A DNA stretch of 38,360 nucleotides. Source: Pseudomonas sp. BN417 (GTDB taxonomy: Bacteria > Pseudomonadota > Gammaproteobacteria > Pseudomonadales > Pseudomonadaceae). The notes below the pieces were generated by a model. That model made no database searches, had not been told where the DNA came from, and saw only the letters and a program-made list of their open reading frames with translations. Location of the stretch: assembly GCF_029871205.1 (NCBI RefSeq), contig NZ_SSOJ01000073.1, forward strand, positions 1 through 38,360, given 5' to 3'. The translations under genes and the position numbers were made by a program. Shown here one piece after another: positions 18,351-38,360 of the stretch (its first letter is position 1; each line of letters opens with the position of its first letter).

Positions 18351-18465
18351 GATGGGCCTCGGTATCTGTGGATGGGGCTTGATTGACAATGCAGATGCTG
18401 TGCCAGCCAACGGCGTCGATCCTGCACCACAATTTATTGAAAGCGCAATCCAAGCAAGCGTTTGA

Positions 18466-20679: not shown

Positions 20680-20697
20680 CCCGGAGGCGGGAAGGCA

Positions 20698-21954: not shown

Positions 21955-22168
21955 CACGGGTGCTCCTGATGGTGTTCGAGGCATTCGCCTTCCTGGGCGG
22001 AATTGTCTTTATCCAGCCGACATTCCGTTGTCGCGCACGCCGTAATGACAGTCGGTCTAGAGCGGTCGCGCGCATGGCGCGAGCGATTTTCCCCCGATCC
22101 GGCTGCACTGTTCCAGCCCAGAACTCCGAAGTCCTTGCTCGATCCTCCGAAAATGCGCCACTGGCGCC
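21955..22168. promoter_or_regulatory. Promoter region of the OprD porin with eutC terminator
   Basis: The first part after the eutC stop is a hairpin GCGCC-AGT-GGCGC (22155-22167) followed on the minus strand by ATTTTC, a likely terminator. The remaining 190 bases carry no gene and must contain the porin promoter. Confidence 0.5.
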
Positions 22169-23002
22169 TCAATGATGGTCGCTAGCCAGCAGGAAATTGC
22201 CCGCCAGGGCGCGGTCGGGTTCACCGGACAGCGAGGGCACCTCGGCCTCGTCCTTCAGATTGACCCCGGACAGTTGGCGCCGGCAGGCCTCGCGCATCAG
22301 GTAGAGCAGGCGATGGGCTGCCATGCCGTAGCTCAGGCCTTCGAGGCGCACGTTGGAGATGCAGTTGCGGTAGGCGTCGGTCAGGCCCACGCGTGGCGCA
22401 TAGGTGAAGTAGAGGCCGAGGCTGTCGGGCGAGCTGAGGCCCGGGCGCTCGCCGATCAGGATCACCACCATCTTCGCGCCCAGCAGTTCCGCCACTTCAT
22501 CCGCCACCGCGACGCGGCCCTGCTGCACCAGTACCACGGGCGAGAGCGACCAGCCCTCGGCCAGGGCCTGCTCTTCCATGCGCTCAAGGAAGGGCAGGCT
22601 GTGGCGTTGCACCGCGAGGGCGGAGAGGCCGTCGGCCACCACCACCGCCAGGTCGTAACCAGCAGGGTTGGCCTGGGCGTGCTGGAGCAGTTTTTCCCTG
22701 GATGCGGCATCCAGGCGTCGGCCCAGGTCCGGGCGCTGCAGGTAGGTGTCGCGGTCCGCGGCGGCGCTGTGCAGCAGCAGGGTGTCGCGGCCGCGTTCGG
22801 TCAGATTCGCGGTCAGGCCGGCATGGTCGAAAGGCAGGTGCACTGCATCCCGCGCCTGGGCGTGGGCGTACTGGAAGTTCAGTTGCGCGGCGGTGGGCAG
22901 GCTGGTACCGGCGCGGCCCAGGGCAATGCGTGCGGGCGTCAGGCGGCGCAGCTCTTCCCAGGGATTGGCGGTGTGGCCGGTGAACTGGCGTGGGGTCTTC
23001 AT
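22169..23002 (-). CDS. eutC: Ethanolamine ammonia-lyase small subunit
   Basis: This is a 277-residue light subunit of the adenosylcobalamin-dependent lyase that converts ethanolamine to acetaldehyde and ammonia. Characteristic stretches are [20 protein letters not shown] (about 26-45), [10 protein letters not shown], the VVADGLSA segment (about 121-128) and [18 protein letters not shown] (about 206-223), with the C-terminal [22 protein letters not shown] site precedes the ATG, and the gene follows eutB with a 17-base gap, so the subunits are translated from one message. No microcompartment genes are present, which fits the Pseudomonas type of soluble pathway. Confidence 0.96.
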
Positions 23003-23019
23003 CCGTCTCTCCTCGGAAT

Positions 23020-24414
23020 TCAGGCGAGTCGCGCGATGGCCTGGCGAAAGGCCGGCGGCAGTTGGTCGCCGAGCAGCACCCGGCCGTCGCTCTGCACCAG
23101 GATACCCATGCGCTCCAACCAGGCCTCGAATTCGGGGGCGGGCTTCAGGCCCAGGCTCTGGCGGGCGTAGAGGGCATCGTGGAAGGAGGTGGTCTGGTAG
23201 TTGAGCATCACGTCGTCGGAACCGGGAATGCCCATGATGAAGTTGATGCCGGCCACCCCGAGCAGGGTCAGCAGCATGTCCATGTCGTCCTGGTCGGCCT
23301 CGGCGTGGTTGGTGTAGCAGATGTCGCAGCCCATGGGCACGCCCAGCAGCTTGGCGCAGAAGTGGTCCTCCAGCCCGGCGCGGATGATCTGCTTGCCGTT
23401 GTAGAGGTACTCGGGGCCGATGAAACCCACCACCGTGTTGACCAGGAAAGGGTTGAAGTGCCGGGCCACGGCATAGGCGCGGGTCTCGCAGGTTTGCTGG
23501 TCGACGCCGTGGTGGGCGTTGGCCGACAGCGCGCTGCCCTGGCCGGTCTCGAAGTACATCAGGTTGTTGCCCAGAGTGCCGCGCTTTTGCGACAGGCCGG
23601 CCTCGTAACCTTCCTGGAGAATCTTGAGGCTGATGCCGAAGCTGGCGTTGGCGGCCTCGGTGCCGGCGATGGACTGGAACACCAGGTCCAGCGGCACGCC
23701 ACGCTCGATGGCGGCGATGGAGGTGGTGACGTGGGTCAGCACGCAGGCCTGGGTGGGGATTTCGTAGCGCTGGATGATGGCGTCAAGCATCTCCAGCATG
23801 GCGCAGATGGAGGAGATGCTGTCGGTGGCCGGGTTGATCCCGAGCATGGCGTCGCCATTGCCGTAGAGCAGGCCGTCGAGGATGCTCGCGGCGATGCCTG
23901 CGGGGTCGTCCGTGGGGTGGTTGGGCTGCAGCCGGGTGGAGAGCCGGCCGCGCAGCCCCATGGTGTTGCGGAAGCGGGTGACCACGCGGATCTTCTGCGC
24001 CACCAGCACCAGGTCCTGCACGCGCATGATCTTCGACACGGCGGCGGCCATTTCCGGCGTCAGGCCGGGGGCGAGGGCGCGCAGGGCGGCTTCGTCGGCG
24101 TGCTCGCTGAGCAGCCAGTCGCGCAGGCCGCCCACCGTCAGGTGGCTGACCGGGGCGAAGGCGGCGCGGTCGTGGCTGTCGATGATCAGGCGGGTGACTT
24201 CGTCCTCCTCGTAGGGGATCAGCGCCTCGTCGAGGAAGTGCTTGAGGGGGATGTCCGCCAGGGCCATCTGCGCGGCGACGCGCTCGCCATCGCTGGCCGC
24301 GGCGACGCCGGCCAGGTAGTCGCCGGACCGCGCCGGACTGGCCTTGGCCATGACTTCCTTGAGGCTGTCGAAGCGCCAGGTCTCGCCTCCGACCATATGG
24401 GAAAAACTACTCAC
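23020..24414 (-). CDS. eutB: Ethanolamine ammonia-lyase large subunit
   Basis: This is the 464-residue catalytic subunit, a TIM barrel that with EutC and adenosylcobalamin removes ammonia from ethanolamine. Diagnostic segments are [20 protein letters not shown] (about 147-166), [37 protein letters not shown] and [20 protein letters not shown], and [19 protein letters not shown] (about 359-377). The start is GTG at 24414 with AAGGAGAG upstream; it matches the usual MSSFSH-like N-terminus. Its length is close to the usual about 453-464. It lies downstream of the permease with an intercistronic hairpin between. Confidence 0.97.
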
Positions 24415-24434
24415 TCGAAGCTCTCCTTGGTAGG

Positions 24435-24461
24435 GCGCCCCGCCTTGTCTCGGCGGGGCGC
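24435..24461 (-). promoter_or_regulatory. Intercistronic hairpin between the ethanolamine permease and eutB
   Basis: A perfect 10-bp stem (GCGCCCCGCC with GGCGGGGCGC) and a 7-nt loop sits between the permease stop and the eutB ribosome-binding site. Without a following T-run it is more likely an mRNA-stability or processing element than a full terminator. Confidence 0.5.
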
Positions 24462-24469
24462 AACTTGCT

Positions 24470-25840
24470 TCAGGCGCGATTCAGCAGGGCATCGGCCGGT
24501 GCACTGGCGCGATGGTGGGCGGTGAACTGGAAGTAGATGTAACCGGCCACCATGAAGCCAAGGAAAATCAAACCGATCAAGGTATTGAACCAGGCCATGG
24601 CCAGCAGGCAGACCACCGCGAGGATCAGCGCAATGGCCGGCACCACCGGATAGCCCGGCGCGCGGAAGCTGCGCTCCAGGTTCGGCTCGCTGACACGCAG
24701 CTTGAACAGGCTGAGCATACTGATGATGTACATGACGATGGCGCCGAACACACTCATGGTGATCATCGCCGCCGTCAGGCTCATGCCTTGCAGGTTCACC
24801 AGGCCATCGCTGTAGATGGCGGCGATGCCGATCACGCCGCCGGCGATGATGGCGCGGTGCGGGGTCTGGAAGCGCGACAGCTTTGCCAGGCCGCGCGGCA
24901 GGTAGCCGGCGCGGGCCAGGGCGAAGAACTGCCGCGAGTAGCCGAGGATGATGCCGTGGAAGCTGGCCACCAGGCCGAACAGGCCGATCCACACCAGCAT
25001 GTGCATCCAGGTCGAGTCGTTGCCGACCACGGCTTTCATCGCCTGGGGCAGCGGGTCATTGATTCCGGAAAGCTGGCGCCAGTCGCCAACGCCGCCGGCC
25101 ATGATCATCACACCGATGGCGAGGAACACCAGGGTGAGGATGCCGGCGATGTAGGCGCGCGGGATGGTGCGTTTCGGGTCCTTGGCTTCTTCCGCCGCCA
25201 TGGCCGCACCTTCGATCGCGAGGAAGAACCAGATGGCGAACGGAATGGCGGCGAAGATGCCGGAGATCGCCGTGCCATTGAACTCGTTGGAGCCGGCCCA
25301 GCCATTGACCACGAAGTTGCTGAAGCTGAAGCCCGGCGCCACCACGCCCATGAACACCAGCAGTTCGGCCACGGCCAGGATGGTCACCACCAACTCGAAG
25401 GCGGCGGCGATGCTGACGCCGAGGATGTTCAGGGTCATGAACACGAAGTAGGCGCCCACGGCGGCGTGCCTCGGGTCCAGCTCCGGGTACTGCACGTTGA
25501 GGTAGGCGCCGATGGCCATGGCGATGGCCGGCGGGGCGAAGACGAACTCGATCAGGGTGGCGATCCCGGCGATCAGCCCGCCCTTCTCACCGAAGGCGCG
25601 GCGGCTGTAGGCGAAGGGGCCGCCGGCATGGGGAATGGCGGTGGTCAGTTCGGTGAAGCTGAAGATGAAGCAGGTGTACATGGTCGCCACCAGCAGCGCG
25701 GTGACCAGGAAGCCGAGGGTGCCGGCGGCGCCCCAGCCATAGCTCCAGCCGAAGTATTCGCCGGAGATCACCAGGCCTACGGCGATGCCCCAGAGATGCA
25801 AGGTGCCCAGTGTTGGTTTTAGTTGTTGTGTCGTGCTCAT
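24470..25840 (-). CDS. eat: Ethanolamine permease (APC superfamily)
   Basis: This 456-residue inner-membrane transporter has about twelve spans. The start is TLHLWGIAVGLVISGEYFGW, containing the substrate-site glycine/glutamate region typical of ethanolamine permeases. Later segments are AIPHAGGPFAYSRRAFGE (about 68-85), IPFAIWFFLAIEGAAMAAEE (about 197-216) and FHGIILGYSRQFFALARAGY. It imports ethanolamine for the downstream lyase. The ATG at 25840 has a GAGGAG site. In the remembered P. aeruginosa order this gene directly follows exaC; here 9.8 kb of other genes lie between, so a local promoter in 25841-26028 must be used or readthrough is lost. Confidence 0.92.
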   Translation of the reverse strand: MSTTQQLKPTLGTLHLWGIAVGLVISGEYFGWSYGWGAAGTLGFLVTALLVATMYTCFIFSFTELTTAIPHAGGPFAYSRRAFGEKGGLIAGIATLIEFVFAPPAIAMAIGAYLNVQYPELDPRHAAVGAYFVFMTLNILGVSIAAAFELVVTILAVAELLVFMGVVAPGFSFSNFVVNGWAGSNEFNGTAISGIFAAIPFAIWFFLAIEGAAMAAEEAKDPKRTIPRAYIAGILTLVFLAIGVMIMAGGVGDWRQLSGINDPLPQAMKAVVGNDSTWMHMLVWIGLFGLVASFHGIILGYSRQFFALARAGYLPRGLAKLSRFQTPHRAIIAGGVIGIAAIYSDGLVNLQGMSLTAAMITMSVFGAIVMYIISMLSLFKLRVSEPNLERSFRAPGYPVVPAIALILAVVCLLAMAWFNTLIGLIFLGFMVAGYIYFQFTAHHRASAPADALLNRA

Positions 25841-26028
25841 CGGGACTCCTCGCCCAAAGGGGCGGTGTTGGTGGATGACCTGGTCCGATCTTATCCAGCG
25901 TCCCTCCCCAGGACTTGACCCTGGACGGTCGTGTGCGGCCTGTGCGGTCAAGTCGCGCGGCACTGTTATCTATCAGGCCTTGTCCTGTGCCTATGACGAA
26001 TGTCGGGCAAGGGGCGCCATGGCCTGAG
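25841..26028. promoter_or_regulatory. Junction between the ethanolamine genes and the PLP cluster
   Basis: There are 188 bases without a gene. I searched the minus strand for a GG-N10-GC sigma-54 pattern and found none, unlike upstream of exaC. It must contain the permease promoter if the gene is expressed independently, and the 3' end of the mocR transcript. Confidence 0.4.
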
Positions 26029-27531
26029 CTACTTGCGGGTTAGGGCGTTGGCCAGGCGCAGCATCGCCGCTTCTATCTCATGGGCGGTCAGGGACGAGTA
26101 GCCCAGCAACCAGCCTTGTTTCTTTTCCGCGCCGGCGTACAGCCGGCTCAGCCCCGGCAGTTGCACGCCGGCGCTGGCGGCCTGGCGGATCGTCTGTTCT
26201 TCCGACCAACCGTCGGCCAGAAAGCAGGGAATCTGCAGCCCACCTTGTGGGCGCAGCGCCGTGACGATGCCCTCCAGGTGTTTGGTGATGGCGTCGAGCA
26301 TGATCGAGCGGCGCCCGGCATAGAGCTTGCGCATGGCTCGCACGTGTGAGTTGTAGTGCCCATCTTCCATGAAGCGCGCCAGGGTCAATTGGAGGATCTG
26401 CGGCGTATGCCCGTCCATGATGCTACGTGCAAAGGTGAAGGGTTTGATCAACTCGTAGGGCAGGACCATATAGCCCATGCGCAGGCCCGGGTAGAGGGTC
26501 TTGCTGAAGGTGCCCAGATAGATTGTCCGCTGGTACTTGTCCAAACCCTGGACGCAGGCAGTCGGCAGGCCGTCGTAGTGGAATTCGCTGTCGTAGTCGT
26601 CCTCGATGATCCACTTGCCACGCTCGGCGGCCCAGTTGATCAGTTCGAAGCGCCGCTCCAGATGTAAGGTTGCGCCCGTGGGGTACTGGTGCGACGGCGT
26701 TACATACACGCAATTGGCGCCGCTGCGGTCGGTCGACAGCAGGTCGGTGCGGATTCCCAGGGCATCCACATTGATGGGCACGACCTTGGTCTCGGCGGTC
26801 TCGAACGATTTTCTGGCTCCGAAGTAGCCGGGGTTTTCCAGCAGAATCGGCTTGCCAGCGTCCACCAGTAGCTGGGCACAGAGAAATAGTGCCTGACGGG
26901 TACTGCTCAGCACCAGGATCTGGTCGGGGGAACACTTGGCCCCACGCTCCAGGTTCAGGTAGGTGGCAATGGCCTTGCGCAGCGGCTCGGCGCCTTGGGG
27001 GTCGCCATGCAACAGTACATTGGCGCGGTAGTCCTTCATGGCCTGGCGCTGCAAGCGCTCCCAGACATCGGTGGGGAAGGTGCGGGTTTCCGGGAGGCCC
27101 GTGGCAAAGGCCTTGATCACCTGCTGGTCGCTGACGCCGCCACTGTCAAAGATCATCTGCCCGCGGCGGCTCAAGCCCGGCCCGGGTGAAGCAAGCACAT
27201 TGCGCCGGCTGCCTGGCGGGTTCATGCGCCGGCGCGTTGCGCCACGCAGCTCGGTGCCCACCGTTTCCGACACATAGCTGCCTGAGCCTTTGCGGCGCAC
27301 GATGAAGCCGTCCCGGTGCAGTTGCACGTAGGCGTTCTCCACGGTGTCGCGGGCAACCCCCAGCGACTTGGCCAGGGCGCGGGTGGCTGGCAGCTTGAGG
27401 CCCGGGTCAAGGGCACCGTCGAGGATCAGCACCCGCAGGGCGCGCTGGATCCGTTGGTGCAGGTCGAGCAGCTGGAACTCGGCATCGTTAAGCCGGATTT
27501 TCAGTGTTTCGAGCTCGAAGGTCTTTGCCAT
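26029..27531 (-). CDS. MocR-family regulator (GntR helix-turn-helix fused to aminotransferase fold), PdxR-like
   Basis: This 500-residue protein has a winged helix-turn-helix at about 25-95 (LKLPATRALAKSLGVARDTV then AYVQLHRDGFIVRRKGSGSY). A fold-type I aminotransferase domain follows (about 130-500), with the PLP-binding Lys near 344 in TFSKTLYPGLRMGY, Asn/Asp sites in YVTPSHQYPTG and the catalytic-like Asp in IIEDDYDSEFHYDG. MocR proteins sense PLP or PLP adducts of amino compounds. It is divergent from serC-like, with 133 bases between, and its cluster is made of PLP-family enzymes, which supports a PdxR-type role. The ATG at 27531 is preferred over the open frame to 27585, as family N-termini begin just before this point. 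Confidence 0.88.
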   Translation of the reverse strand: MAKTFELETLKIRLNDAEFQLLDLHQRIQRALRVLILDGALDPGLKLPATRALAKSLGVARDTVENAYVQLHRDGFIVRRKGSGSYVSETVGTELRGATRRRMNPPGSRRNVLASPGPGLSRRGQMIFDSGGVSDQQVIKAFATGLPETRTFPTDVWERLQRQAMKDYRANVLLHGDPQGAEPLRKAIATYLNLERGAKCSPDQILVLSSTRQALFLCAQLLVDAGKPILLENPGYFGARKSFETAETKVVPINVDALGIRTDLLSTDRSGANCVYVTPSHQYPTGATLHLERRFELINWAAERGKWIIEDDYDSEFHYDGLPTACVQGLDKYQRTIYLGTFSKTLYPGLRMGYMVLPYELIKPFTFARSIMDGHTPQILQLTLARFMEDGHYNSHVRAMRKLYAGRRSIMLDAITKHLEGIVTALRPQGGLQIPCFLADGWSEEQTIRQAASAGVQLPGLSRLYAGAEKKQGWLLGYSSLTAHEIEAAMLRLANALTRK

Positions 27532-27664
27532 GTGGTCTGCCCTGATCGCACAAAATGGCCTGCAACGGCAGGCCAGTCTATCCATAGACTCTGTTCGTCG
27601 CCAATGCGTTCTCGCGCGGCGCTCTTATGCCGTAATGGCGCGATTGATCAGGGTTGATAACGGT
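27532..27664. promoter_or_regulatory. Divergent promoter region mocR / serC-like with two palindromes
   Basis: Two adjacent perfect inverted repeats are visible: TGGCCTGC-AACG-GCAGGCCA (27556-27575) and AGTCTAT-CC-ATAGACT (27575-27590). A further pair CCCTGATC (27540-27547) and GATCAGGG (27646-27653) brackets the region. The motif GTGGTCTG (27532-27539) next to the mocR start recurs in the serC-transporter gap. These are candidate operators; which are used is unknown. Confidence 0.5.
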
Positions 27665-28747
27665 ATGGCAAGGTCTCACAACTTCAGCGCAGGCCCCACC
27701 GCGCTGCCTCTCGAAGTACTTCAGCAAGCCCATGAAGAGTTCTTCGACTTCGCTGGCACCGGCATGTCGGTGATGGAAATCAGTCATCGCTCCGAGGTGT
27801 TCATGGAGCTCGGCCATCAGGCCGAACAGGACCTGCGGGCAATTTTGCAGGTGCCCAGCCAATACAAGGTCCTGTTCGTTCAGGGCGGCGCTTCGATGCA
27901 GTTCGCCCAGGTGCCGATGAACCTGCTGGGCGACAAAGGCACGGCCGACTACCTGCATACTGGGTTGTGGTCGGGCAAGGCCATCCAGGCCGCCCAGCGC
28001 TACTGTGACGTGCGTGTTGCGGCCAGCAGCAAGGCTTCGGGTTTCGATCGCATCCCGTGCGCGGCCGACTACAACCTCAACCCCAATGCCGCCTACCTGC
28101 ACTACACCGAAAACGAAACCGTGCACGGCGCTCAGTTCGCCGACGTGCCGGACGCTTGCGTGCCCTTGGTATGCGATGCCTGTTCGAGCCTGCTGTCCAA
28201 GCCCATCGATGTTGCCAGGCATGGCCTGATCTACGCTGCGGCGCAGAAGAACATGGGCGCGGCGGGTTTGACCGTGGTGATCGTCGATGAGGCGTTGCTC
28301 GGCCGCGCCCTGGCGCTGACACCGGAGATTCTCGACTATGCGAGGATCGCCAAGGCCGAGTCGATGCTCAATACGCCGTCGACGTTCCCCTGGTACCTCA
28401 CTGGCCTGACCCTGAAGTGGGTGCTGCGACGCGGCGGCATCGCCAGTATCCACCAGCTCAACCAGACCAAGGCCGAGCTGCTCTACCGCACCATCGACGA
28501 CAGCGGCGGTTTCTACCGCAACCGTGTGGAGGCGCCGTTTCGTTCGATCAACAACGTACCCTTCGTGCTCGCCGACCCGGCGCTGGAGCCGGCCTTCCTG
28601 CGCCTGGCCGAACAGTCCGGGCTCATGGGGCTCAAGGGGCATGCCTCGGTCGGCGGCGTCAGGGCCAGCCTCTACAACGCGGTGACGCTGCAAGCGGTGC
28701 AGGCCCTGAGTGACTTCATGAAGGACTTCGCCCAGGTACACGGTTAG
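27665..28747 (+). CDS. serC: Phosphoserine aminotransferase-family protein with altered phosphate site
   Basis: The 360-residue fold-type I enzyme aligns with E. coli SerC nearly without gaps: NFSAGPTALP, SVMEISHRS (His41, Arg42), Trp102, PLP-Lys195 in AAAQKNMGAAG, and GGVRASLYNAV (Arg333, alpha-carboxylate site). SerC uses glutamate to aminate 3-phosphohydroxypyruvate. Here the KGHR segment that contacts the substrate phosphate in SerC reads KGHA (Ala327), removing one of its basic residues, so a non-phosphorylated or otherwise different substrate is possible. The start at 27665 matches the SerC N-terminus; an in-frame ATG at 27635 would add ten residues. A housekeeping serC is expected elsewhere in a Pseudomonas genome (near pheA). 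Confidence 0.85.
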   Translation: MARSHNFSAGPTALPLEVLQQAHEEFFDFAGTGMSVMEISHRSEVFMELGHQAEQDLRAILQVPSQYKVLFVQGGASMQFAQVPMNLLGDKGTADYLHTGLWSGKAIQAAQRYCDVRVAASSKASGFDRIPCAADYNLNPNAAYLHYTENETVHGAQFADVPDACVPLVCDACSSLLSKPIDVARHGLIYAAAQKNMGAAGLTVVIVDEALLGRALALTPEILDYARIAKAESMLNTPSTFPWYLTGLTLKWVLRRGGIASIHQLNQTKAELLYRTIDDSGGFYRNRVEAPFRSINNVPFVLADPALEPAFLRLAEQSGLMGLKGHASVGGVRASLYNAVTLQAVQALSDFMKDFAQVHG

Positions 28748-28875
28748 GCCGGAGTGGTCCAGTAAGTGGTCTGGTCATTAAGGCGAAAGTGTAGGGGCTA
28801 GACAAGCCATTGCGGCTCTATAAGTCAGCTTCCACCTGGGGCCGTGCACCCCGCTTTGCAAGGAGCAAGCAAACC
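28748..28875. promoter_or_regulatory. Gap between serC-like and the transporter, probable internal promoter
   Basis: There are 128 bases that are long for an intercistronic gap in this cluster. It holds the tandem AGTGGTCY repeats and an AAGGAGC ribosome-binding site at its end. Confidence 0.45.
28753..28776 (+). promoter_or_regulatory. Tandem AGTGGTCY repeats, candidate MocR/PdxR operator
   Basis: AGTGGTCC (28753-28760) and AGTGGTCT (28765-28772) are direct repeats with a 12-base period. They lie just after the serC-like stop and about 100 bases before the transporter start. From memory, PdxR operators in actinobacteria contain AAAGTGGTCTA-like motifs, and MocR proteins usually bind direct repeats. 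A related GTGGTCTG occurs at 27532. Confidence 0.45.
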
Positions 28876-30123
28876 ATGTCTTCTTCAGCACCCAGAGCCT
28901 CTCTGCACCTGAGCGATTTGACTCATCCGATCGTCGCCGGGCTGATTTCGGTCATCGTCAACTATGGCGGTACCTTCATTCTGGTGTTTCAGGCCGCCAA
29001 GGTGGCAGGGTTGAGCCCAGAACTCACGGCCTCGTGGGTATGGTCGGTGTCGATTGGCGTGGGCGTTACCGGGTTGCTCCTCAGCTGGATTTCCCGCGAG
29101 CCGATCATTACCGCCTGGTCGACTCCCGCAGCGGCATTTCTGGTGGTCGCCCTTGCCACCACGCCCTACGCAGAAGCGGTCGGCGCTTACCTGATCTCCG
29201 CTGCGGCGTTCGTGTTACTGGGTTTGTCCGGCTATTTCGAGAAGGTCATCCGACTGATCCCATCCGGGGTGTCCGCCGGGCTGCTCGCCGGCATCCTGCT
29301 GCAGTTTGGCATTGGCGCCTTTGGCGGCGTGAGCATCGACCCGCTGCTGGGCGGCCTGCTGATTGTCGCCTACGTGGTGCTCAAGCGATTTACCGCGCGC
29401 TATGCCGTGGTCGGCATCCTGGTATTGGGCGTGGCCTTCTTGCTGACCCAGGGGCGGGTGGATCTGTCAGGGTTGCAGCTGCAGTTGGCCGCGCCGGTGT
29501 TCACTATGCCGGTGTTCTCGCTAAATGCCTTGCTCAGCGTTGCGTTGCCACTCTTTCTGATTACCCTGACCGGCCAGTACATGCCGGGCATGCTGGTGCT
29601 GCGTAACGACGGCTTCCGCACCAGTGCCAACCCGATCGTCACGGTCACCGGCCTTGGTTCGTTGTTGATGGCCCCGTTCGGCTCCCACGCATTCAATATC
29701 GCCGCGATTACCGCCGCGATCTGTACCGGCAAGGAAGCCCACGAAGAACCTTCCAAACGTTGGATAGCCGGGATTGCCGCGGGGGTGTTCTACATCCTGG
29801 TGGGGATCTTCGGTGTGACCCTGGCCGCAGTGTTCATGGCCTTCCCGGCAACATTCATCACCACCCTGGCCGGGCTGGCTCTGCTGGGCACTATAGGCGG
29901 TAGCCTGGCCAGTGCCATGGCGGATGCCAAGTCCCGCGAGGCTTCACTGATCACCTTCCTGGCCGCCGCCGCCAATATCACCTTGTTCGGTATCGGTGGG
30001 GCGTTCTGGGGGCTGCTGATCGGCCTGCTGGCCTATGCCGTGCTCAACGGTCGCCTGCCACGTCGTCAGCCTGCCACTAACGTCGCCGATGCGACTGCCC
30101 GCAAAGGAGCCACCAACGGATGA
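28876..30123 (+). CDS. BenE/YdcO-family transporter
   Basis: This 415-residue inner-membrane protein has about twelve hydrophobic spans. BenE-family features are the start LTHPIVAGLISVIVNYGGTF, PIITAWSTPAAAFLV (about 72-86), KVIRLIPSGVSAGLLAGILL (about 119-138), TGQYMPGMLVLRNDGF and GSHAFNIAAITAAICTGKEA (about 272-291). Family members carry benzoate or related compounds with protons; YdcO of E. coli has no confirmed substrate. Here it probably moves the substrate or product of the PLP enzymes, and benzoate itself is not suggested by the neighbours. The yggS-like gene begins inside its stop codon (ATGA overlap), so the two are translationally coupled. Confidence 0.85.
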   Translation: MSSSAPRASLHLSDLTHPIVAGLISVIVNYGGTFILVFQAAKVAGLSPELTASWVWSVSIGVGVTGLLLSWISREPIITAWSTPAAAFLVVALATTPYAEAVGAYLISAAAFVLLGLSGYFEKVIRLIPSGVSAGLLAGILLQFGIGAFGGVSIDPLLGGLLIVAYVVLKRFTARYAVVGILVLGVAFLLTQGRVDLSGLQLQLAAPVFTMPVFSLNALLSVALPLFLITLTGQYMPGMLVLRNDGFRTSANPIVTVTGLGSLLMAPFGSHAFNIAAITAAICTGKEAHEEPSKRWIAGIAAGVFYILVGIFGVTLAAVFMAFPATFITTLAGLALLGTIGGSLASAMADAKSREASLITFLAAAANITLFGIGGAFWGLLIGLLAYAVLNGRLPRRQPATNVADATARKGATNG

Positions 30124-30974
30124 GCAGCCTTCTCGAACAGGCCGCCCCCCAGACCCTGCACGAGCGGCACGGGCGTTACCCGCAAGCCAATAGCGTCGAG
30201 GACTTTCGCCGCAACCTGTCCGCCGTCCAGCAGCGTATCGCCGATGCTTGTCGGCGCGTCGGTCGCGACCCGGCGAGCGTGCGTCTGTTGCCGGTGAGCA
30301 AAACCTTTGACGAAGCCCGCTTGCGCCTGGCCTACGCTGCCGGCTGTCGGCTGCTGGGCGAGAACAGGGTGCAGGATGCCCAGCGCAAAGCGCACGCCAT
30401 GGCCGATCTGAGCGACCTGCGCTGGTCGGTCATCGGTCACCTGCAGACCAACAAGGCCAAGCAGGTGGCGCGCTTTGCTTCCGAGTTTCAGGCTCTGGAC
30501 AGCCTGCGCGTGGCCGAGGCGCTGGACCGCCGCCTTCAAGCCGAAGGCCGGCAACTGGATGCGTTCGTCCAGGTAAACACTTCCGGCGAGGCCAGCAAGT
30601 ACGGTCTGGCTCCCGAGCACGTTGCCGGATTCCTGCAGGCGCTGCCCGCGTTCAGCGCGCTGCGCGTGCGTGGCCTGATGACCCTGGCGTTGTTCTCTGC
30701 CGATGTCGCCCGGGTGCGCCCCTGTTTCGTGCTGCTGCGTGAGCTGCGCGAGCGCCTGCGCCAGCATGCACCGGCCGCAATCAGCCTGGACGAGCTGTCG
30801 ATGGGCATGTCCGGTGATTTCGAGGTCGCCATTGAAGAGGGCGCCACCGTCGTGCGCGTTGGTCAGGCCATCTTTGGCGCCCGGGCCATGCCCGATGCCT
30901 ATTACTGGCCTACGGCGGATGCCTCTCCCGCCAGAGATGAGCAACCACCATCAACAATCCATGAATGCTTTTGA
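30120..30974 (+). CDS. YggS/PLPBP-family PLP homeostasis protein
   Basis: This 284-residue fold-type III PLP carrier of the YggS (PLPHP/PROSC) family manages free PLP and amino/keto-acid balance and is not an enzyme. Motifs are LLPVSK (PLP Lys61), LLGENRVQDAQRKA, WSVIGHLQTNKAKQV, and LDELSMGMSGDFEVAIEEGA followed by TVVRVGQAIFGAR. E. coli YggS has 234 residues. The extra length here is an N-terminal extension of about 25 residues and a C-terminal tail of about 25. It overlaps the transporter stop by 4 bases. A yggS gene in an inducible PLP-enzyme cluster, away from pilT/proC where pseudomonads normally keep it, suggests local demand for PLP handling. Confidence 0.88.
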   Translation: MSSLLEQAAPQTLHERHGRYPQANSVEDFRRNLSAVQQRIADACRRVGRDPASVRLLPVSKTFDEARLRLAYAAGCRLLGENRVQDAQRKAHAMADLSDLRWSVIGHLQTNKAKQVARFASEFQALDSLRVAEALDRRLQAEGRQLDAFVQVNTSGEASKYGLAPEHVAGFLQALPAFSALRVRGLMTLALFSADVARVRPCFVLLRELRERLRQHAPAAISLDELSMGMSGDFEVAIEEGATVVRVGQAIFGARAMPDAYYWPTADASPARDEQPPSTIHECF

Positions 30975-30999
30975 TCCGTGACCTACTGGAAGGAATGCC

Positions 31000-32172
31000 G
31001 TGACCTCATCACCCTCGTACCTCATGCAGACCTATGCACGTCAGCCTGTCTCGTTCGCCCGAGGCGAGGGCGCGCGCCTGTGGGACACGCAAGGGGTCGA
31101 GTATCTGGACGCAATCGCCGGCGTGGCGGTAACCAGTCTGGGTCATGCCAACCCCGAGATCGCCGCGGCCATTGCCGACCAGGCCGGCCAATTGCTGCAC
31201 ACCACCAACATGTTCCGTATCCCGTGGCAGGAGCAACTGGGCCAGCGACTGTGCGGTCTCTCGGGCATGAAGCGAGCATTCTTCTGCAACTCGGGCGCCG
31301 AGGCCAACGAGGCCGCGCTCAAGCTGGCCCGCTTGCACGCCAACGCCAGGCAGGTCGCCCAGCCTCAGATCCTGGTGACGGAAAACAGTTTTCACGGACG
31401 TACCCTCGCGACCCTGGCCGCCACCGGCAACCCGGCTGTACGGCGCGGTTTCGAACCCTTGATGCCGGGCTTTTTGCGGGTGCCCTACAACGACATCGAA
31501 GCCGTGCGCAACGCCGCCGCGCAGTCACCCGACATCGTCGCCGTGCTGGTCGAGCCGGTGCAGGGCGAGGGCGGGGTGCACCCGGCATCCGCCGCTTACT
31601 TGCAGGCTTTGCGTCAACTGTGCAACCAGCACGACTGGTTGCTGATGACCGATGAAGTGCAGACCGGCATGGGACGCACCGGCGAGTGGTTCGGCTTCCA
31701 GCATGCCGGGATCGTGCCTGACGTGATGACCTTGGCCAAGGCCCTGGGCAATGGCTTCCCGATCGGGGCTTGCCTGGCGCGTGACAAGGCGGCCGAGCTG
31801 TTTTCCCCGGGCCACCATGCCTCGACCTTCGGAGGCAATCCGCTGGCCTGCCGGGTTGGCTGCACGGTGCTCAACATCATGGAGCGAGAGCGCAGCCCGC
31901 AACGTGCCGCCAGCCTCGGCCGGCGCCTGCTGGCAGGCTTGCAGGAAGCCCTCGGCAACCATCCCGAAGTGCTTGCGGTGCGCGGCCTGGGCCTGATGGT
32001 CGGAATTGAGCTGAACCGCAACTGCGTTGAGCTGGTCGGCCGTGCAAGGGACGAACAGCGACTGTTGGTCACCGTCACCCGCGGCACCACTGTTCGCCTG
32101 CTGCCGCCGCTGATTTGCGATGAAGCGCAGATCGACGACATCGTCGAGCGCATCACCCGGTTGCTGGCGTAG
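31000..32172 (+). CDS. argD: Class III aminotransferase, acetylornithine aminotransferase (ArgD) type
   Basis: This 390-residue fold-type I enzyme shows [18 protein letters not shown] (94-111), [26 protein letters not shown] (184-196), [12 protein letters not shown] (217-228; Asp218 binds the pyridine nitrogen) and [13 protein letters not shown] with PLP-Lys247. It transfers the amino group between an omega-amino compound such as N-acetylornithine and 2-oxoglutarate. The sequence follows the ArgD branch closely, though with few arginine genes nearby it may act on another omega-amino acid. The start is GTG at 31000 with AAGGA upstream; an ATG at 31024 is an alternative. It is the fourth gene of the plus-strand cluster, 25 bases after yggS-like. 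The symbol marks the family, not a proven role. Confidence 0.87.
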
Positions 32173-32218
32173 CTGGCACTGGCAGCAAGGTAATTTCCCC
32201 ACTACAGGACCTATCGTC

Positions 32219-33484
32219 ATGTACGACTCATCCCTGAGCCTCAACGATTTCGATGCCGAGCTGTGCGAGGCCATTCGCGGCGAAGAACACCGCCAGGAAG
32301 ATCACGTCGAGCTCATCGCCTCTGAGAACTACGCCAGTCCCCTGGTCATGAAAGTGCAGAACTCGGTGTTCACCAACAAGTACGCCGAAGGCTATCCGGG
32401 CAAGCGCTACTACAGCGGTTGCGAGTATGTCGACGTGGCTGAGCGCCTGGCTATCGAACGGGTCAAGCAGCTGTTTGACTGCGACTATGCCAACGTTCAA
32501 CCGCATGCCGGCGCCCAGGCCAACGCTGCCGTATTCCTGGCACTGATCAACCCCGGTGATACTGTGATGGGCATGAACCTTGCCCAGGGCGGCCACCTTA
32601 CCCATGGCAACCCGTCCAACTTCTCTGGCCGCCACTACAAGATCGTCCCCTACGGCCTCGACCCCGAGACTGGGCTGATCAACTACGACGAGATGGAGCG
32701 CATTGCCCTAGAGACCCGACCGAAGATGCTTATCGGCGGTTTTTCGGCTTACTCGCGTTACAAGGACTGGGCACGCATGCGCGCCATCGCCGACAAGATC
32801 GGGGCCATCTTCTGGGTCGACATGGCCCACGTCGCCGGCCTGGTGGCGGCGGGCGAGTACCCGAATCCTCTGCCGCACGCCCATGTCGTCACCAGTACCA
32901 CCCACAAAACGCTGCGCGGTCCACGCGGTGGGCTGATCCTGGCCACGGGCCAAGACGAGACCTTCTACAAGCAGCTCGATTCGGCGGTGTTCCCAGGGGT
33001 CCAGGGCGGCCCGCTGATGCACCAGATCGCTGCTAAGGCGGTGGCCTTCAAGGAAGCCCTGGCGCCAGCGTTCAAGACCTACCAGCAGCAGACAGTGGTC
33101 AACGCCAGGGCCATGGCGGCGGTGCTGCAAAAGCGCGGTTACAAGATTGTCTCCGGTGGTACCGACAACCACATGATGCTCATAGACCTTTCCGACAAGC
33201 CATACACCGGCAAGGAAGCCGATGCGGCGCTGAGCAACGCCTGCATCACCGCCAACAAGAACTCGGTGCCCAACGACCCGCGTTCGCCATTCGTGACGTC
33301 CGGCTTGCGCATCGGCACCCCGGCGGTGACCACTCGCGGCTTTGGCGTGGACGATTGCGAGCAGTTGACAGGCTGGCTGTGCGACGTGCTGGATGTCCTG
33401 GAGTCGGGTGGCAGCGAGCAGGTGACGCAACAGGTGCGTGAACAGGTAGCGGCGCTGTGCCGCCGCCATCCGGTATACCGTTGA
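32219..33484 (+). CDS. glyA: Serine hydroxymethyltransferase
   Basis: This 421-residue fold-type I enzyme interconverts serine and glycine with tetrahydrofolate, and can cleave other beta-hydroxy amino acids. It shows [29 protein letters not shown] with the ring-stacking His126, [18 protein letters not shown], and PLP-Lys230 in [14 protein letters not shown]. Two serines that border the PLP phosphate in E. coli GlyA (Ser97 and Ser99) are both Ala here (HAGAQAN), and Gly in YYGG is Ser66. Whether this weakens PLP binding is untested. The ATG at 32219 gives the usual GlyA length (E. coli 417); the longer frame overlaps the argD-like gene. It ends the cluster. The housekeeping glyA copy should lie elsewhere. 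Confidence 0.93.
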
Positions 33485-33684
33485 CTCGTTATCCCTCGGG
33501 TGCGGCTTATTGCCGGCCCAGAGGCTGTCTGCGAGCAGTGTGGAAACAGCAGCTTCCAGGAGGCATTTACCGACGTGGATACGCCAACCACATTTGCCAC
33601 CCAGTCTTATGCCGTTGCTACGCAACTGCTGTGTGAACAGGAACTGGATGCTGGGATGGATAGAATAAAACCGGACTGATTGGC

Positions 33685-33985
33685 AGGCATCAGCCCGGAG
33701 CAACCGCTGCATCCCACCCTGAGCCTGGCTCTGACCAATTAGCGCCAGTTGCTGGAAGACGCCGCGCGTCGGTCCGGCTGCGACAACTTCGGGCTGCGCT
33801 ATGGGCAACATCCAGTCCCGCGACCAGGAGTTGCTCGGCTACGTCGGGCTGTTCTCGAGCACCCTGGAGAAGGCGCGGAAGAACTTCGCGACCACCTTCC
33901 CCTAACACCAGCACGGCACACTGATTCGCCTGATGAATTGCGGTTGGTGCTTCCGCTTCGATTTCCAGTTGCGCCACATTGCGCG
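33685..33985 (+). pseudogene. Broken partial copy of the downstream AraC-family regulator gene
   Basis: The stretch aligns with 34372-34665 of the intact gene, about 75-80 percent identical by eye. It reads ISPEQPLHPTLSLALTN, a stop (TAG), RQLLEDAARRSGCDNFGLRY with a frame change after GQ, then LLGYVGLFSSTLEKARKNFA and a further stop. Only the segment corresponding to residues about 50-148 remains. This is a degenerate paralogue, possibly from a tandem duplication or a replaced ancestral copy. Confidence 0.8.
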
Positions 33986-33990
33986 ATCTG

Positions 33991-34020
33991 ACTCCCCCTC
34001 CCACCGGGAGAGGGGGAGAA
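33991..34020. repeat. C-rich/G-rich hairpin
   Basis: CTCCCCCTCCC, a short ACC loop and GGGAGAGGGGGAG form a strong stem with a small bulge, a REP-like or terminator-like structure directly after the pseudogene. Confidence 0.5.
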
Positions 34021-34170
34021 CGAGTGTCGCGCCGTGCCCATCCCCAGACTGTTACCCATCACCCCACCGGCCCCGCCCCGGCACGGGGCACGGCTCGATG
34101 GCGTGCACGCAGATGGCTCGGAAATCCCCTATTCATGGGCGCTCTGACCCGTATTCGCGCGGCCGCTCAA

Positions 34171-34188
34171 GGGGCATGGGTTTTGCTT
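34171..34188 (+). promoter_or_regulatory. Sigma-54-like promoter of the AraC-family regulator
   Basis: The sequence GGCATGGGTTTTGC has GG at 34173-34174 and GC at 34185-34186 separated by ten bases, with TTGC at the -12 element. This fits the sigma-54 consensus. The ATG follows about 38 bases after the -12 element. Confidence 0.45.
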
Positions 34189-34223
34189 GAATGCGTGATC
34201 AAAAAAAGACTCGGTAGCCCGTG

Positions 34224-35276
34224 ATGAACCAGCCCCTGTTTTCCAGTGTCGGCCTGCAGGCACCTGCGGTGAACAACGTCGGCGTGCTGTCGGCGGCTGC
34301 CAGCGGCCTCGATCGCTTCATCACCGACCAGGGCGGCGACCTGGACCTGGTCTTCGGCCGTGCCGGCATCGACCCGGAGCAGTTGCTCCACCCCACGCTG
34401 AGCCTGGCCCTGCCCAACTACTGCCAGGTGCTGGAGGAAGCCGCCCGGCAATCGGGCTGCGACAACTTCGGTCTGCGCTATGGCCAGCAGTTCCAGCCCC
34501 GCGCGCTGGGTCTGCTGGGTTACGTCGGACTCTGCTCGGACACCCTGGAAGAGGCACTGAAGAACTTCGCCGCCGCCTTTCCCTATCACCAGCACAGCAC
34601 GTTAATCCGCCTGGTGGATTGCGGCGAGTGCTACCGCTTCGACTACCAGGTCCGCCACGGCGCCATCCTCGACCGCCGCCAGGACGCCGAGCTGACCATG
34701 GGCATGGCATTCAACCTGATGCGCCATGTCCTGGGTGCCGAGTGGACGCCGCGCGCGGTGGCCTTCGAACACGAGCGCCCCGAGGGCTGGCAGGAGCACG
34801 GCCAGGCCTTCGGCGCGCCGGTGCAGTTCGGCCGGCCCTGCAACTTCCTGCTGGTTCCCAAGGGCGATGTGCACGGCAAGGCCATGCCGGAACGCGATCC
34901 TAACCTGCTGTTCCTGGTCCAGGACGTGATCCGCAGGCTGGGGGAGCAGGACATGCGACCGAGCCTGCTGGAAGAGGCGGGCACCCAGATCCGCCTCGCC
35001 CTGGCCCTGGGCGAGCCCAGCCTGGAGCAGATCGCCGAGCGCCTGGAGCTGACCCCGGCGGGATTGCAGCGCCGCCTGCGCGAGGAGAACCTCAGCTTCA
35101 GCCAGCTGGTGGAACAGACCCGCCGCGAGCTGGCGCTGCACTACCTGCGCCAGCGCCAGCGGCCGATTTCCGAACTGGCGCCCCTGCTCGGCTACTCCGA
35201 AACCAGCGCCTTCTCCCGCGCCTTCCGCCGCTGGTTCGGGGTGAGCCCGAGGCAGTGGCGGGGTGACGAGCGCTGA
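34224..35276 (+). CDS. AraC-family regulator with OruR/QhpR-type ligand domain
   Basis: This 350-residue protein has an arabinose-binding-like N-terminal domain of the OruR/ArgR branch (about 1-215; ASGLDRFITDQGGD, HPTLSLALPNYCQVLEEAAR, GLLGYVGLCSDTLEEALKNF) and a single C-terminal AraC helix-turn-helix pair (about 250-345; SLEQIAERLELTPAGLQRRL and ISELAPLLGYSETSAFSRAF then RRWFGVSPRQWR). Related proteins control ornithine or amine catabolism; QhpR for amine dehydrogenase is one I recall as similar. It stands between the PLP cluster and exaC, so amine metabolism fits. A GTG one codon upstream (34221) is possible. A degenerate copy lies just upstream. Confidence 0.85.
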   Translation: MNQPLFSSVGLQAPAVNNVGVLSAAASGLDRFITDQGGDLDLVFGRAGIDPEQLLHPTLSLALPNYCQVLEEAARQSGCDNFGLRYGQQFQPRALGLLGYVGLCSDTLEEALKNFAAAFPYHQHSTLIRLVDCGECYRFDYQVRHGAILDRRQDAELTMGMAFNLMRHVLGAEWTPRAVAFEHERPEGWQEHGQAFGAPVQFGRPCNFLLVPKGDVHGKAMPERDPNLLFLVQDVIRRLGEQDMRPSLLEEAGTQIRLALALGEPSLEQIAERLELTPAGLQRRLREENLSFSQLVEQTRRELALHYLRQRQRPISELAPLLGYSETSAFSRAFRRWFGVSPRQWRGDER

Positions 35277-35293
35277 TCCCTGGGATAACCCCC

Positions 35294-35333
35294 TGTAGGA
35301 GCGAATTCATTCGCGAATAAATTCGCTCCTACA
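35294..35333. repeat. REP-like palindrome
   Basis: TGTAGGAGCGAAT and ATTCGCTCCTACA form a perfect 13-bp stem around a loop that itself contains ATTCGCGAAT. This is the common GTAGGAGCGAATTC extragenic palindrome type of pseudomonads. Confidence 0.7.
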
Positions 35334-35459
35334 AACGCATGTCCCACCAATCGGTAGCCCGGATGAAGCCCGGGGAAATCCAATCGCTTGCGCAGGAGTC
35401 CCCTGCAAGGCTCGGGGGCAGACCTTCGGCCTGCTCAGCGAATGAATTCGCCCCCCCCA

Positions 35460-35510
35460 GGGTTCGAGTCCCGCCGTGGGCCGCAAGTGTTTCCAGGCTG
35501 CGGCTTTTTT
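35460..35510 (+). other. tRNA-like T-arm scrap followed by a terminator
   Basis: GGGTTCGAGTCCC (35460-35472) has the TTCGA loop and flanking stem of a tRNA T-arm, but the sequence upstream cannot form the rest of a tRNA. A hairpin GCCGCA...TGCGGC with six T follows at 35480-35510. It may be the 3' end of a lost tRNA gene. Confidence 0.4.
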
Positions 35511-35606
35511 GTGGGGGCGATTTCAATCGCTGACCGGTCCGCAGGACCGGCTTTCGGACTTGCCGGGGGACGCTGCGCATCCCTTCGCGAATGAATTCGC
35601 TCCCAC
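35511..35606. repeat. Composite REP-like palindrome
   Basis: The outer arms GTGGGGGCGA (35511-35520) and TCGCTCCCAC (35597-35606) pair with one wobble. An inner perfect hairpin CCGGTCC-GCA-GGACCGG lies at 35534-35550. Confidence 0.6.
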
Positions 35607-35632
35607 AAGTAATGGCAGTCATCCAGACAACA

Positions 35633-35658
35633 AAAAACGCGGCCGAGGCCGCGTTTTT
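35633..35658. terminator. Bidirectional terminator downstream of exaC
   Basis: AAAAACGCGGCC and GGCCGCGTTTTT form a perfect 12-bp stem with A- and T-runs, 17 bases beyond the exaC stop on the minus strand. Confidence 0.85.
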
Positions 35659-35674
35659 CGTTACCAGGCGTGGA

Positions 35675-37195
<1,521 letters not shown>

Positions 37196-37542
37196 GGTGT
37201 TTCTCCTGGCTCTTGTGTTTGTTGGAGAGAACGCTTGCCTGCTCGCGAGATCGTGAACAGGCTCTCGGTGGCGTTTGTATCTCCTGAGCAAGGCCTGGGC
37301 CAAAGTGCCAGGAGTGCCGTGCCAGAGCGGTTCTCCGCTATATGATGCGGGCGGCCCGCGGTGGGCTGTCGCAAGGCCGGTACAAACCAGGGTGACACTT
37401 TGTCACGCAAATGGCACAGCGGGTGACCGGCGGGTCAGCGGGCCATTGCAAAGGACTGCACGCTGGGGGATGCTGCGGCGATGCGGGTGCCGCGCCACGG
37501 CCCGGGCTGCCTCCCGGAGGCCCGCACTGGAGAAGAACAACA
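37196..37542. promoter_or_regulatory. Divergent promoter region of exaC and the sigma-54 activator gene
   Basis: There are 347 bases without a gene. It contains the sigma-54-like site for exaC, and room beyond it (37305-37450) for upstream activator sites. GGTGACACTTTGTCAC at 37391-37406 contains GTGACA and TGTCAC halves (GTGACAC-TT-TGTCAC-like symmetry), a plausible activator site. A GGAGAAG ribosome-binding site precedes the activator start. Confidence 0.5.
37286..37303 (-). promoter_or_regulatory. Sigma-54-like promoter of exaC
   Basis: Read on the minus strand the site is TTGGCCCAGGCCTTGCT, with GG and GC separated by ten bases and TTGC at -12. The predicted transcription start leaves about 80 bases of leader before the exaC ATG. 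Confidence 0.55.
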
Positions 37543-38360
37543 ATGCAGAACCCTCACAGCCGTCACGCCCAACAGGTGCTGACCCTGGCACAGGGCAAGG
37601 CGCAGGCCAGCGGGCCGGCTGCCGACCCTTCGATCGCCCGTTCCTGGCTGCGCTGCCTGGAGGATTACCACCTCGACCCGGCTTTGCCGGTGGCGCCGAC
37701 GGTGCTGGAGCACGGGCGCATGCTTGAATGCCGCGAGCGCATGCAGCAAGTGCTGGAGATCGCCAGCGGCGAGATGAACAACCTCTACCGGCAGCTCTCC
37801 GGAGCCGGGCACGCGGTGCTGCTCACCGACGCCCGCGGCGTCATCCTCAACTGCGTCACCGCCCATGCCGAGCGGCCGACTTTCGAACGCGCCGGGCTCT
37901 GGCTCGGCGCCGACTGGAGCGAGTCCAGCGAAGGCACCAACGGCATCGGCACCTGCGTGGTGGAGCGTCAGGCGCTGACCATCCACCAGGACGAACACTT
38001 CCGCAGCCGTCACACCGGCCTCACCTGTTCCGCCAGCCCGGTGTTCGATCCCCAGGGCGACCTGATGGCGGTGCTCGACGTGTCCTCCGCGCGGCATGAC
38101 ATGTCGCGCCAGAGCCAGTTCCACACCATGGCGTTGGTCAACCTCTCGGCCAAGATGATCGAGAGCTGCTACTTCCTGCGCCGCTTCGAAGGCGAATGGC
38201 TGCTGCGTTTCCACCTGCAGGCCGAGTACGTCGGCCTGTTCAGCGAAGGGCTGCTGGCCTTCGACGGCGAAGGGCGCATTCGTGCAGTCAACCAGAGCGC
38301 GATCAACCTGCTCGGCTGCTTCCGCGAGCAGTTGCTCGGCCAGCCGGTGGAAGCCTTCTT
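37543..38360 (+). CDS. Sigma-54-dependent activator of the AcoR/EatR type, N-terminal part
   Basis: The frame is open for 272 codons to the window end. After a helical start with DPSIARSWLRCLEDYHLDP (about 28-46, typical of AcoR-type regulators), a GAF-like domain spans about 75-205 with SESSEGTNGIGTCVVERQAL and HTGLTCSASPVFDPQGDLMA. A PAS domain then begins (about 235; GLLAFDGEGRIRAVNQSAIN). The AAA+ and Fis domains lie beyond the window. It is divergent from exaC, and in P. aeruginosa the equivalent gene (EatR, from memory) activates ethanolamine use. The effector is presumably ethanolamine or acetaldehyde. Confidence 0.88.
   Translation, partial: MQNPHSRHAQQVLTLAQGKAQASGPAADPSIARSWLRCLEDYHLDPALPVAPTVLEHGRMLECRERMQQVLEIASGEMNNLYRQLSGAGHAVLLTDARGVILNCVTAHAERPTFERAGLWLGADWSESSEGTNGIGTCVVERQALTIHQDEHFRSRHTGLTCSASPVFDPQGDLMAVLDVSSARHDMSRQSQFHTMALVNLSAKMIESCYFLRRFEGEWLLRFHLQAEYVGLFSEGLLAFDGEGRIRAVNQSAINLLGCFREQLLGQPVEAF

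Follow-up and report, generated by a model that had tools for sequence, protein, structure and literature searches.

A cluster of PLP-binding protein families with a MocR regulator

We analyzed contig NZ_SSOJ01000073.1 of Pseudomonas sp. BN417 (assembly GCF_029871205.1), a stretch of 38,360 nucleotides that represents the entire contig and is referred to as the window, with a focus on a cluster of six genes at positions 26029-33484. As described in the initial annotation of this DNA, a gene for a MocR regulator is divergent from genes encoding SerC-, BenE-, YggS-, ArgD- and GlyA-type proteins, and five of the six proteins belong to families that bind pyridoxal 5'-phosphate (PLP) (Table 1). All six pass the cut-offs of curated models: MocR the PdxR-type model NF052282 (426 bits, cut-off 320), the SerC-like protein NF003764 (480 bits, cut-off 253), BenE TIGR00843 (387 bits, cut-off 203), YggS TIGR00044 (185 bits, cut-off 106), ArgD TIGR00707 (473 bits, cut-off 410) and GlyA the serine hydroxymethyltransferase (SHMT) model NF000586 (631 bits, cut-off 335). 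The BenE and YggS genes overlap by 4 bases. By eye, all five PLP proteins carry the motifs of the PLP-binding lysine. GlyA aligns over its full length with solved SHMT chains, and BenE gave a single chance-level match to a solved structure (E 0.59). Genes for PLP synthesis or salvage (pdxST, pdxK, pdxU) are not among the six; the genome was not searched for them.

Table 1. Features of the six-gene cluster and its insertion site in the window.
Feature	Position	Strand	Evidence
MocR regulator, DnfR type (judged by sequence)	26029..27531	-	NF052282 above cut-off; 81-82% identity to MocR adjoining dnfABC at three Alcaligenes loci
Operator-like GTGGTCTG, touching MocR start codon	27532..27539	+	Conserved in relatives
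Operator-like inverted repeat TGGCCTGC-N4-GCAGGCCA, between MocR and SerC	27556..27575		TGGYCTG at most 140 bp before SerC in 32/33 loci
SerC-like transaminase, DnfT1 type	27665..28747	+	NF003764 above cut-off; clade with SerC-like proteins of dnf loci
Operator-like AAGTGGTCTGG before BenE	28764..28774	+	TGGYCTG at most 170 bp before BenE in 40/41 loci
BenE-family transporter	28876..30123	+	TIGR00843, PF03594
YggS-type PLP-binding protein, cluster subfamily	30120..30974	+	TIGR00044; branch separate from housekeeping YggS
ArgD-family transaminase, GTG start	31000..32172	+	TIGR00707; clade
GlyA (SHMT)	32219..33484	+	NF000586; clade
Inserted segment holding the cluster, between eat and AraC gene	~25975..34047		Congener sequence aligns up to 25974 and resumes at ~34048
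Remnant of a second AraC gene (decayed N-terminal part), right end of insertion	33683..33977	+	78% identity to intact AraC gene at 34221-35276

We searched other genomes for the same neighborhood. Scanning genomes with the SerC protein returned 52 loci; on these and on the loci found in the family (65 loci, cited by L numbers, of which five duplicate named contigs) we mapped the window proteins. The six-gene order recurs not only in many Pseudomonas but also in Halopseudomonas pelagia (L009) and an Accumulibacter bin (L037), and the grouping is therefore not due to chance. The neighborhood is thus common across the loci mapped and not a singleton in the databases.

The initial annotation had also suspected transfer, based on a GC content below that of the flanks. 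The mean of eight 1-kb windows is 63.1% at 26001-34000 versus 66.0% at 18001-26000, with 65.7% for the right flank (34001-38000), a deficit of about three points. Of 18 genomes of the genus, 17 have the ethanolamine permease gene eat, which adjoins the cluster in the window; the cluster is absent beside it in all 16 congeners that have eat. Transfer is borne out because these sites are empty. Within the genus, a MocR of at least 77% identity is confined to the window's own genome (1/18), and one other genome has a 71% relative. Across the family such a MocR is found in 26 of 398 genomes, with 67-71% relatives in 7 more and all remaining matches at or below 54%. We take the cluster to be horizontally acquired.

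The cluster is related to dnf (Dirammox) loci

The dnf genes dnfT1RT2ABCD of Alcaligenes form the Dirammox cluster, in which dnfT1 is SerC-like, dnfR is of the MocR type and dnfT2 encodes an SHMT (PMC9136411). Expression of dnfABC alone is sufficient to make hydroxylamine and N2 in E. coli (PMC9136411). The cluster is controlled by DnfR, a MocR protein (PMC9355588, PMC12575085), and a dnfR mutant does not make hydroxylamine (PMC9355588). dnfABC homologues are reported in Pseudomonas cedrina and in other genera (PMC11440038).

The MocR of the window is 81-82% identical to the MocR encoded beside dnfABC at the Alcaligenes loci L031, L032 and L039, and by sequence the cluster regulator is of the DnfR type. 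In comparison with the Alcaligenes dnfT1RT2ABCD cluster, the likeness extends to the DnfT1-type SerC-like protein (56-57%), to an adjoining GlyA (79%) and to an operator motif; the window cluster differs by lacking T2, DnfA, DnfB, DnfC and DnfD and by adding BenE, YggS and ArgD. It is not itself a dnf cluster because dnfABC is missing from the window. A DnfA query (the L007 protein) has no match in the genome, and neither T2 (SHMT) nor DnfD (pyridoxal kinase) has a match in the window.

Variants of the cluster occur in Achromobacter, Alcaligenes, Marinobacterium and Xenophilus. At L007, the MocR gene converges with that of a second SHMT (T2), beyond which the opposite strand encodes an MFS protein, an AurF-type diiron N-oxygenase, a 2Fe-2S reductase, a glutamine amidotransferase and an ABM-domain protein. 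All six genes are joined by T2, DnfA, DnfB and DnfC at eleven distinct Pseudomonadaceae loci (L007, L010-L014, L017, L021, L027, L029, L091), of which two are without the MFS gene and one (L029) has its SerC gene broken into two pieces. L182, from another family, combines dnfABC and T2 with MocR, BenE, YggS, ArgD and GlyA, without SerC.

At the Achromobacter loci L016, L022-L024 and L026, BenE and T2 lie on one side of MocR and SerC on the other. A cluster-type YggS gene is located about 6-9 kb off, beside a DnfC-like amidotransferase.

A predicted operator is common to the cluster and the dnf operons

Most relatives have an inverted repeat of TGGYCTG between MocR and the neighboring gene, which is perfect in Alcaligenes (TGGTCTGAC-TA-GTCAGACCA). 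AAGTGGTCTG or a close form is also found before BenE, T2 and the MFS-dnf operon. Counted on either strand, TGGYCTG precedes the first genes BenE (40/41), SerC (32/33), MocR (45/49), MFS-dnf (9/10) and T2 (14/19), the five T2 misses all being Achromobacter loci where T2 comes after BenE. It is far scarcer before internal genes, with 10/29 for YggS, 8/21 for ArgD, 3/29 for GlyA and 0/10 for DnfB. Loci sharing a contig with a named one (L095, L101, L102, L110, L112) and matches below the set identities (Achromobacter BenE, 68-69%; a MocR-BenE sister group, 66-71%) are omitted from these counts, and the count before MocR misses the site touching its start codon. Within the window, GTGGTCTG has 4 matches versus 1.46 expected, a number reached in 7 of 100 shuffles, and two of the four lie in the promoters named. 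We predict from these patterns that one TGGYCTG operator is common to the MocR, SerC, BenE and dnf operons.

The cluster enzymes are distinct from the other copies in the genome

Each enzyme family has further members in the same genome, so the cluster does not hold the only serC, argD and glyA genes: there are three GlyA-like genes (66-67% identity to the cluster GlyA), one SerC (53%), one YggS (41%) and three ArgD-family genes (39-42%, E at most 1e-60). The cluster enzymes fall into clades apart from the housekeeping proteins, as the initial annotation had wished to see examined. The cluster-type clade holds 31 of 55 sequences for SerC (support 0.984, with the SerC-like proteins of Alcaligenes inside), 35 of 62 for GlyA (0.937), 25 of 30 for ArgD (0.967; small comparison set of 5) and 47 of 54 for YggS (0.892; small comparison set of 7). 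An arbitrary outside sequence served as the root of the trees; matches below set lengths or with internal stops were omitted (e.g. SerC pieces in L029 and L033) and identical sequences were collapsed. Lysine 195 of SerC is kept in 31/31 sequences of the cluster-type clade and in 24/24 comparison SerC proteins. GlyA and ArgD show many fixed differences versus only 3 and 5 comparison sequences, respectively, which does not single out resistance residues.

MocR and BenE outlast the enzymes, and DnfR modules accompany DnfA-type genes

Among the 26 family loci, full genes are found for MocR in 26, BenE in 23 (plus one broken), GlyA in 12, YggS in 11, and SerC and ArgD in 7 each; on the dnf side, T2, DnfC and the ABM-domain gene are present in 4 each and DnfA, DnfB and MFS in 3 each. 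Retention is thus roughly nested in the order MocR, BenE, GlyA/YggS, SerC/ArgD, dnf. The nesting is not strict: L101 has SerC without ArgD, L107 ArgD without SerC, and L104 GlyA without YggS. Gene remnants, some very short, are present in 8 loci (L093, L097, L100, L104, L105, L108, L109, L110). MocR is paired with BenE in 6 of 7 loci of the 67-71% sister group as well. In L117-L122 such sister pairs (66-69% to the window MocR) have another gene order, with no PLP enzyme set nearby.

DnfA-type genes were found in 8 of the 398 family genomes, three in full clusters and five of a second type (62-67%) located elsewhere (L151-L155). The DnfR module is present in 7 of these 8 genomes compared with 26 of 398 overall (Fisher p 1.7e-8, kinship uncorrected) and in 4 of the 5 with the second type (Fisher p 4e-5, kinship uncorrected), where it lies on another contig or, in one closed genome, 0.78 Mb off. 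In L152 (6584-18318), DnfA, DnfB and DnfC adjoin a YiiM-like MOSC gene, a lone ccoN, a pyridoxal kinase, an ArgD (69%) and an alanine transaminase, together with two PtsJ-type MocR genes, one above and one below the cut-off. L153 matches L152 gene for gene, and L154 carries a YiiM-like gene and an ArgD (59%).

Related gene sets are carried by plasmids

BenE of 80-90% identity is present on 20 of 25 matching plasmid records from Ensifer, Azospirillum, Shinella, Pseudomonas and others, and cluster-type YggS on 21 plasmid records. We viewed the neighborhoods of 5 of the 25 BenE records and of 8 further ones among the 21 YggS records. pBYT1-1 and pKAZ5, both typed as conjugative, carry an island (L168:5741-22018; L169, L173) with genes for MocR, BenE, YggS, an amidotransferase, pyridoxal kinase, ArgD, TrpB, TrpA and GlyA, to which pKAZ5 adds SerC and an annotated HisC. 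These vitamin B6 gene islands resemble the window cluster in BenE (86-88%), YggS (73-75%), ArgD (75%) and GlyA (84-88%), and differ from it in a MocR of only 52-53% identity and in the added TrpAB, pyridoxal kinase, GNAT and amidotransferase. An Ensifer plasmid has MocR and BenE only.

PLP or B6 genes adjoin YggS on 6 of the 8 further plasmids viewed: PtsJ, an amidotransferase and a kinase in Rahnella and Lelliottia; MocR in Bosea; MocR, an amidotransferase, GlyA and pyridoxal kinase in Agrobacterium; BenE (45%), MazG, two transaminases, GlyA and MocR in Rhodococcus. In Prescottella, an actinobacterial plasmid has its PLP enzymes in a run, with GlyA, TrpB, IlvA, a non-canonical purine NTP pyrophosphatase, three class I/III transaminases, a PfkB kinase, a GNAT protein and SerC (L176:1-12275). 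No such genes stand beside cluster-type YggS on the Paracoccus and Rhizobium plasmids, and all 35 plasmid records matching cluster-type SerC are below 60% identity. Beyond plasmids, cluster-type YggS (at least 54%) occurs in 12 of 397 other genomes of a phylum sample, and a MocR or PtsJ gene adjoins it in 9 of the 12 versus 0 of 8 housekeeping YggS control loci, which were hand-picked and of which two (14.3 and 6.8 kb) are shorter than the others.

A putative hydroxylamine immunity module

Hydroxylamine is made by heterotrophic ammonia oxidizers and inhibits their neighbors (PMC9355588). PLP forms stable oximes with substituted hydroxylamines (PMC11557217), and YiiM and RdgB-type enzymes are reported to protect against N-hydroxylated purines. 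We propose that the cluster represents a stand-alone, acquired module that protects against hydroxylamine and similar amines reactive with carbonyls and corresponds to the immunity half of dnf loci. We give this reading, built on gene content and sequence comparison, a probability of roughly 0.57. We favor it because the added genes suit a poison that attacks PLP and hydroxylates purines, because the linked producer set makes hydroxylamine, and because Alcaligenes inhibited 33 of 40 strains, including nine Pseudomonas, with hydroxylamine (PMC9355588). Among the explanations offered in the initial annotation, spare PLP enzymes and a transporter acting against a PLP poison is therefore the best supported, with two amendments: the poison that linkage points to is hydroxylamine and not cycloserine, canaline or vinylglycine, and the SerC-like enzyme probably does not fit the part of a plain spare.

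According to this model, DnfR, a MocR protein with a PLP-binding fold, would sense the loss or modification of PLP when hydroxylamine enters and forms PLP oxime, and would switch on two transcription units. GlyA and ArgD would replace the poisoned enzymes of serine/glycine and arginine metabolism, YggS would manage free PLP, and the SerC-like enzyme may have drifted to another substrate. BenE might carry the poison or its adduct out, or B6 vitamers in, both cargo and direction being putative.

Producers of poisons can resist them by duplicated target enzymes, i.e. divergent extra copies of metabolic enzymes encoded beside the poison genes. The cluster would differ from this by holding several presumably tolerant enzymes with one cofactor, matching a cofactor poison.

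A number of observations weigh against the immunity module. At position 327, a basic residue is absent throughout the SerC-like clade (0/31) but Arg or Lys is present in 24/24 comparison SerC proteins; we assume that this position binds the phosphate of the substrate in SerC. Its members also have Cys for Ser at 173 and Asn for Met at 296 (30/31 each), and the SerC of pKAZ5, unlike this clade, keeps the basic residue. As the basic residue is gone, the notion of a spare copy fails for the SerC-like enzyme, which is probably not a plain spare SerC. About half of the 26 family loci keep MocR and BenE only, leaving most carriers without the enzyme set, and 23 of the 26 have no DnfA nearby. No BenE is found at the Alcaligenes dnf loci in the stretch viewed, two of the five second-type DnfA loci (L151, L155) have no PLP genes in the stretch viewed, and none of the five has the operator before DnfA. 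Genome-wide, exact AAGTGGTCTGG is not enriched (5 sites versus 3 for the reversed pattern), and no wider regulon was found with it. The YiiM-like genes score 177 bits (L152, best match YiiM) and 181 bits against a curated YiiM cut-off of 294. The plasmid MocR proteins are only 50-54% identical to that of the window; they are relatives and are not taken as DnfR. Finally, Suvorova and Rodionov (2016, PMC5320631) interpret regulons of this kind as PLP metabolism.

This last interpretation represents the chief rival, and we give it an appreciable minority chance: in a PdxR-type PLP homeostasis without any poison, MocR would sense low PLP and call for BenE as B6 transporter, YggS to handle PLP, and PLP enzymes. 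The window MocR passes the PdxR model, and the published PdxR regulons combine MocR with ArgD, GlyA, COG325 (YggS-type) and BenE, listed as a 'putative pyridoxine transporter', and share acetyltransferases, an amidotransferase and COG2258 with relatives of the cluster (PMC5320631). Cytochrome oxidases and threonine dehydratase, too, are among the published MocR targets and match genes seen in L152 and L176 (PMC5320631). The regulons differ from the cluster in being read as PLP metabolism, and the paper does not name SerC, draws no link to dnfABC and does not contain 'hydroxylamine' in its main text. Homeostasis is at odds with the dnfABC linkage and with an operator common with dnfABC. Moreover, the cluster is without a PLP synthesis or salvage gene, and the extra TrpAB, GlyA, ArgD and SerC that plasmids repeat would be useless against a shortage of the cofactor. 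The published view in PMC5320631 may describe the same system with the poison left out of account.

Protection against another PLP antimetabolite (cycloserine, canaline, vinylglycine, hydrazine or an unknown dnf-derived product), with dnfABC as one of several sources, has in our view a small chance of being correct. The enzyme set suits PLP poisons in general, and genes for glutamine amidotransferase, GNAT, MFS and ABM-domain proteins recur; yet dnfABC is the only producer set found linked, and the YiiM-like and NTP-pyrophosphatase genes point to N-hydroxylation chemistry. We consider it improbable that BenE imports an unusual beta-hydroxy or omega-amino acid for breakdown via transamination and GlyA cleavage. 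The SerC-like clade, having lost a residue that presumably binds phosphate, hints at a new substrate and BenE relatives are described as importers (by family name only), but the enzymes are lost where MocR and BenE persist, neither a dehydrogenase nor any other catabolic step recurs alongside these genes, and the plasmid sets carry the biosynthetic TrpAB. That the six genes are leftover working parts of hydroxylamine or N2 production is very improbable even though dnfT1 and dnfT2 belong to the dnf cluster, as dnfABC alone suffices for production in E. coli (PMC9136411), the six genes are open here without dnfABC, and MocR and BenE persist in most loci without it.

Extending the immunity reading beyond the window is more tentative and, we think, falls somewhat short of even odds: there might be a mobile class of hydroxylamine-immunity islands in Proteobacteria and Actinobacteria, also on conjugative plasmids, in which MocR-controlled PLP enzymes are combined with PLP-supply genes and BenE and, in some lineages, with enzymes against N-hydroxylated purines. 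Such islands would be the counterpart to the hydroxylamine weapon, and dnfT1, dnfT2, dnfD and many predicted 'PdxR' regulons would be included.

The initial annotation did not recognize a pathway in the six genes, which holds only in part. MocR regulons with BenE, GlyA, ArgD and COG325 are in print as PLP metabolism (PMC5320631) and dnfT1, dnfR and dnfT2 are named in the Dirammox cluster (PMC9136411); the cluster thereby counts as a half-documented pathway. The parts, i.e. the dnf cluster, the PdxR-type regulons and the YiiM and NTPase defenses, are known. In the literature searched, which took in few subscription journals, we found neither a link between these parts, which may be partly in print, nor a dedicated hydroxylamine resistance.

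If true, the immunity module would assign a function to dnfT1, dnfT2 and dnfD, on which the passages cited here state none, and would recast a set of predicted PLP regulons as stress defense. It would represent an overlooked mobile defense against a natural chemical weapon, one in which a poison of the cofactor is countered by the joint replacement of several enzymes, and its genes would be a marker for exposure to biological hydroxylamine.

The insertion site

The insertion of about 8 kb lies between eat and the AraC gene; its borders are approximate and the left one shifts with the genome compared. In 13 of the 16 congeners eat is divergent from the AraC gene at a distance of about 0.3 kb, and in the other 3 exaC adjoins eat. 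A function of the cluster tied to the flanking ethanolamine genes was considered and ruled out since all 16 congeners with eat lack the cluster there. The decayed AraC piece at the right end may have been carried in along with the cluster, from a donor with a similar ethanolamine locus. The ethanolamine locus itself is split by the cluster, with eutC, eutB and eat at 22169-25846 and the AraC gene and exaC at 34221-37198, and is contiguous in 13 congeners.

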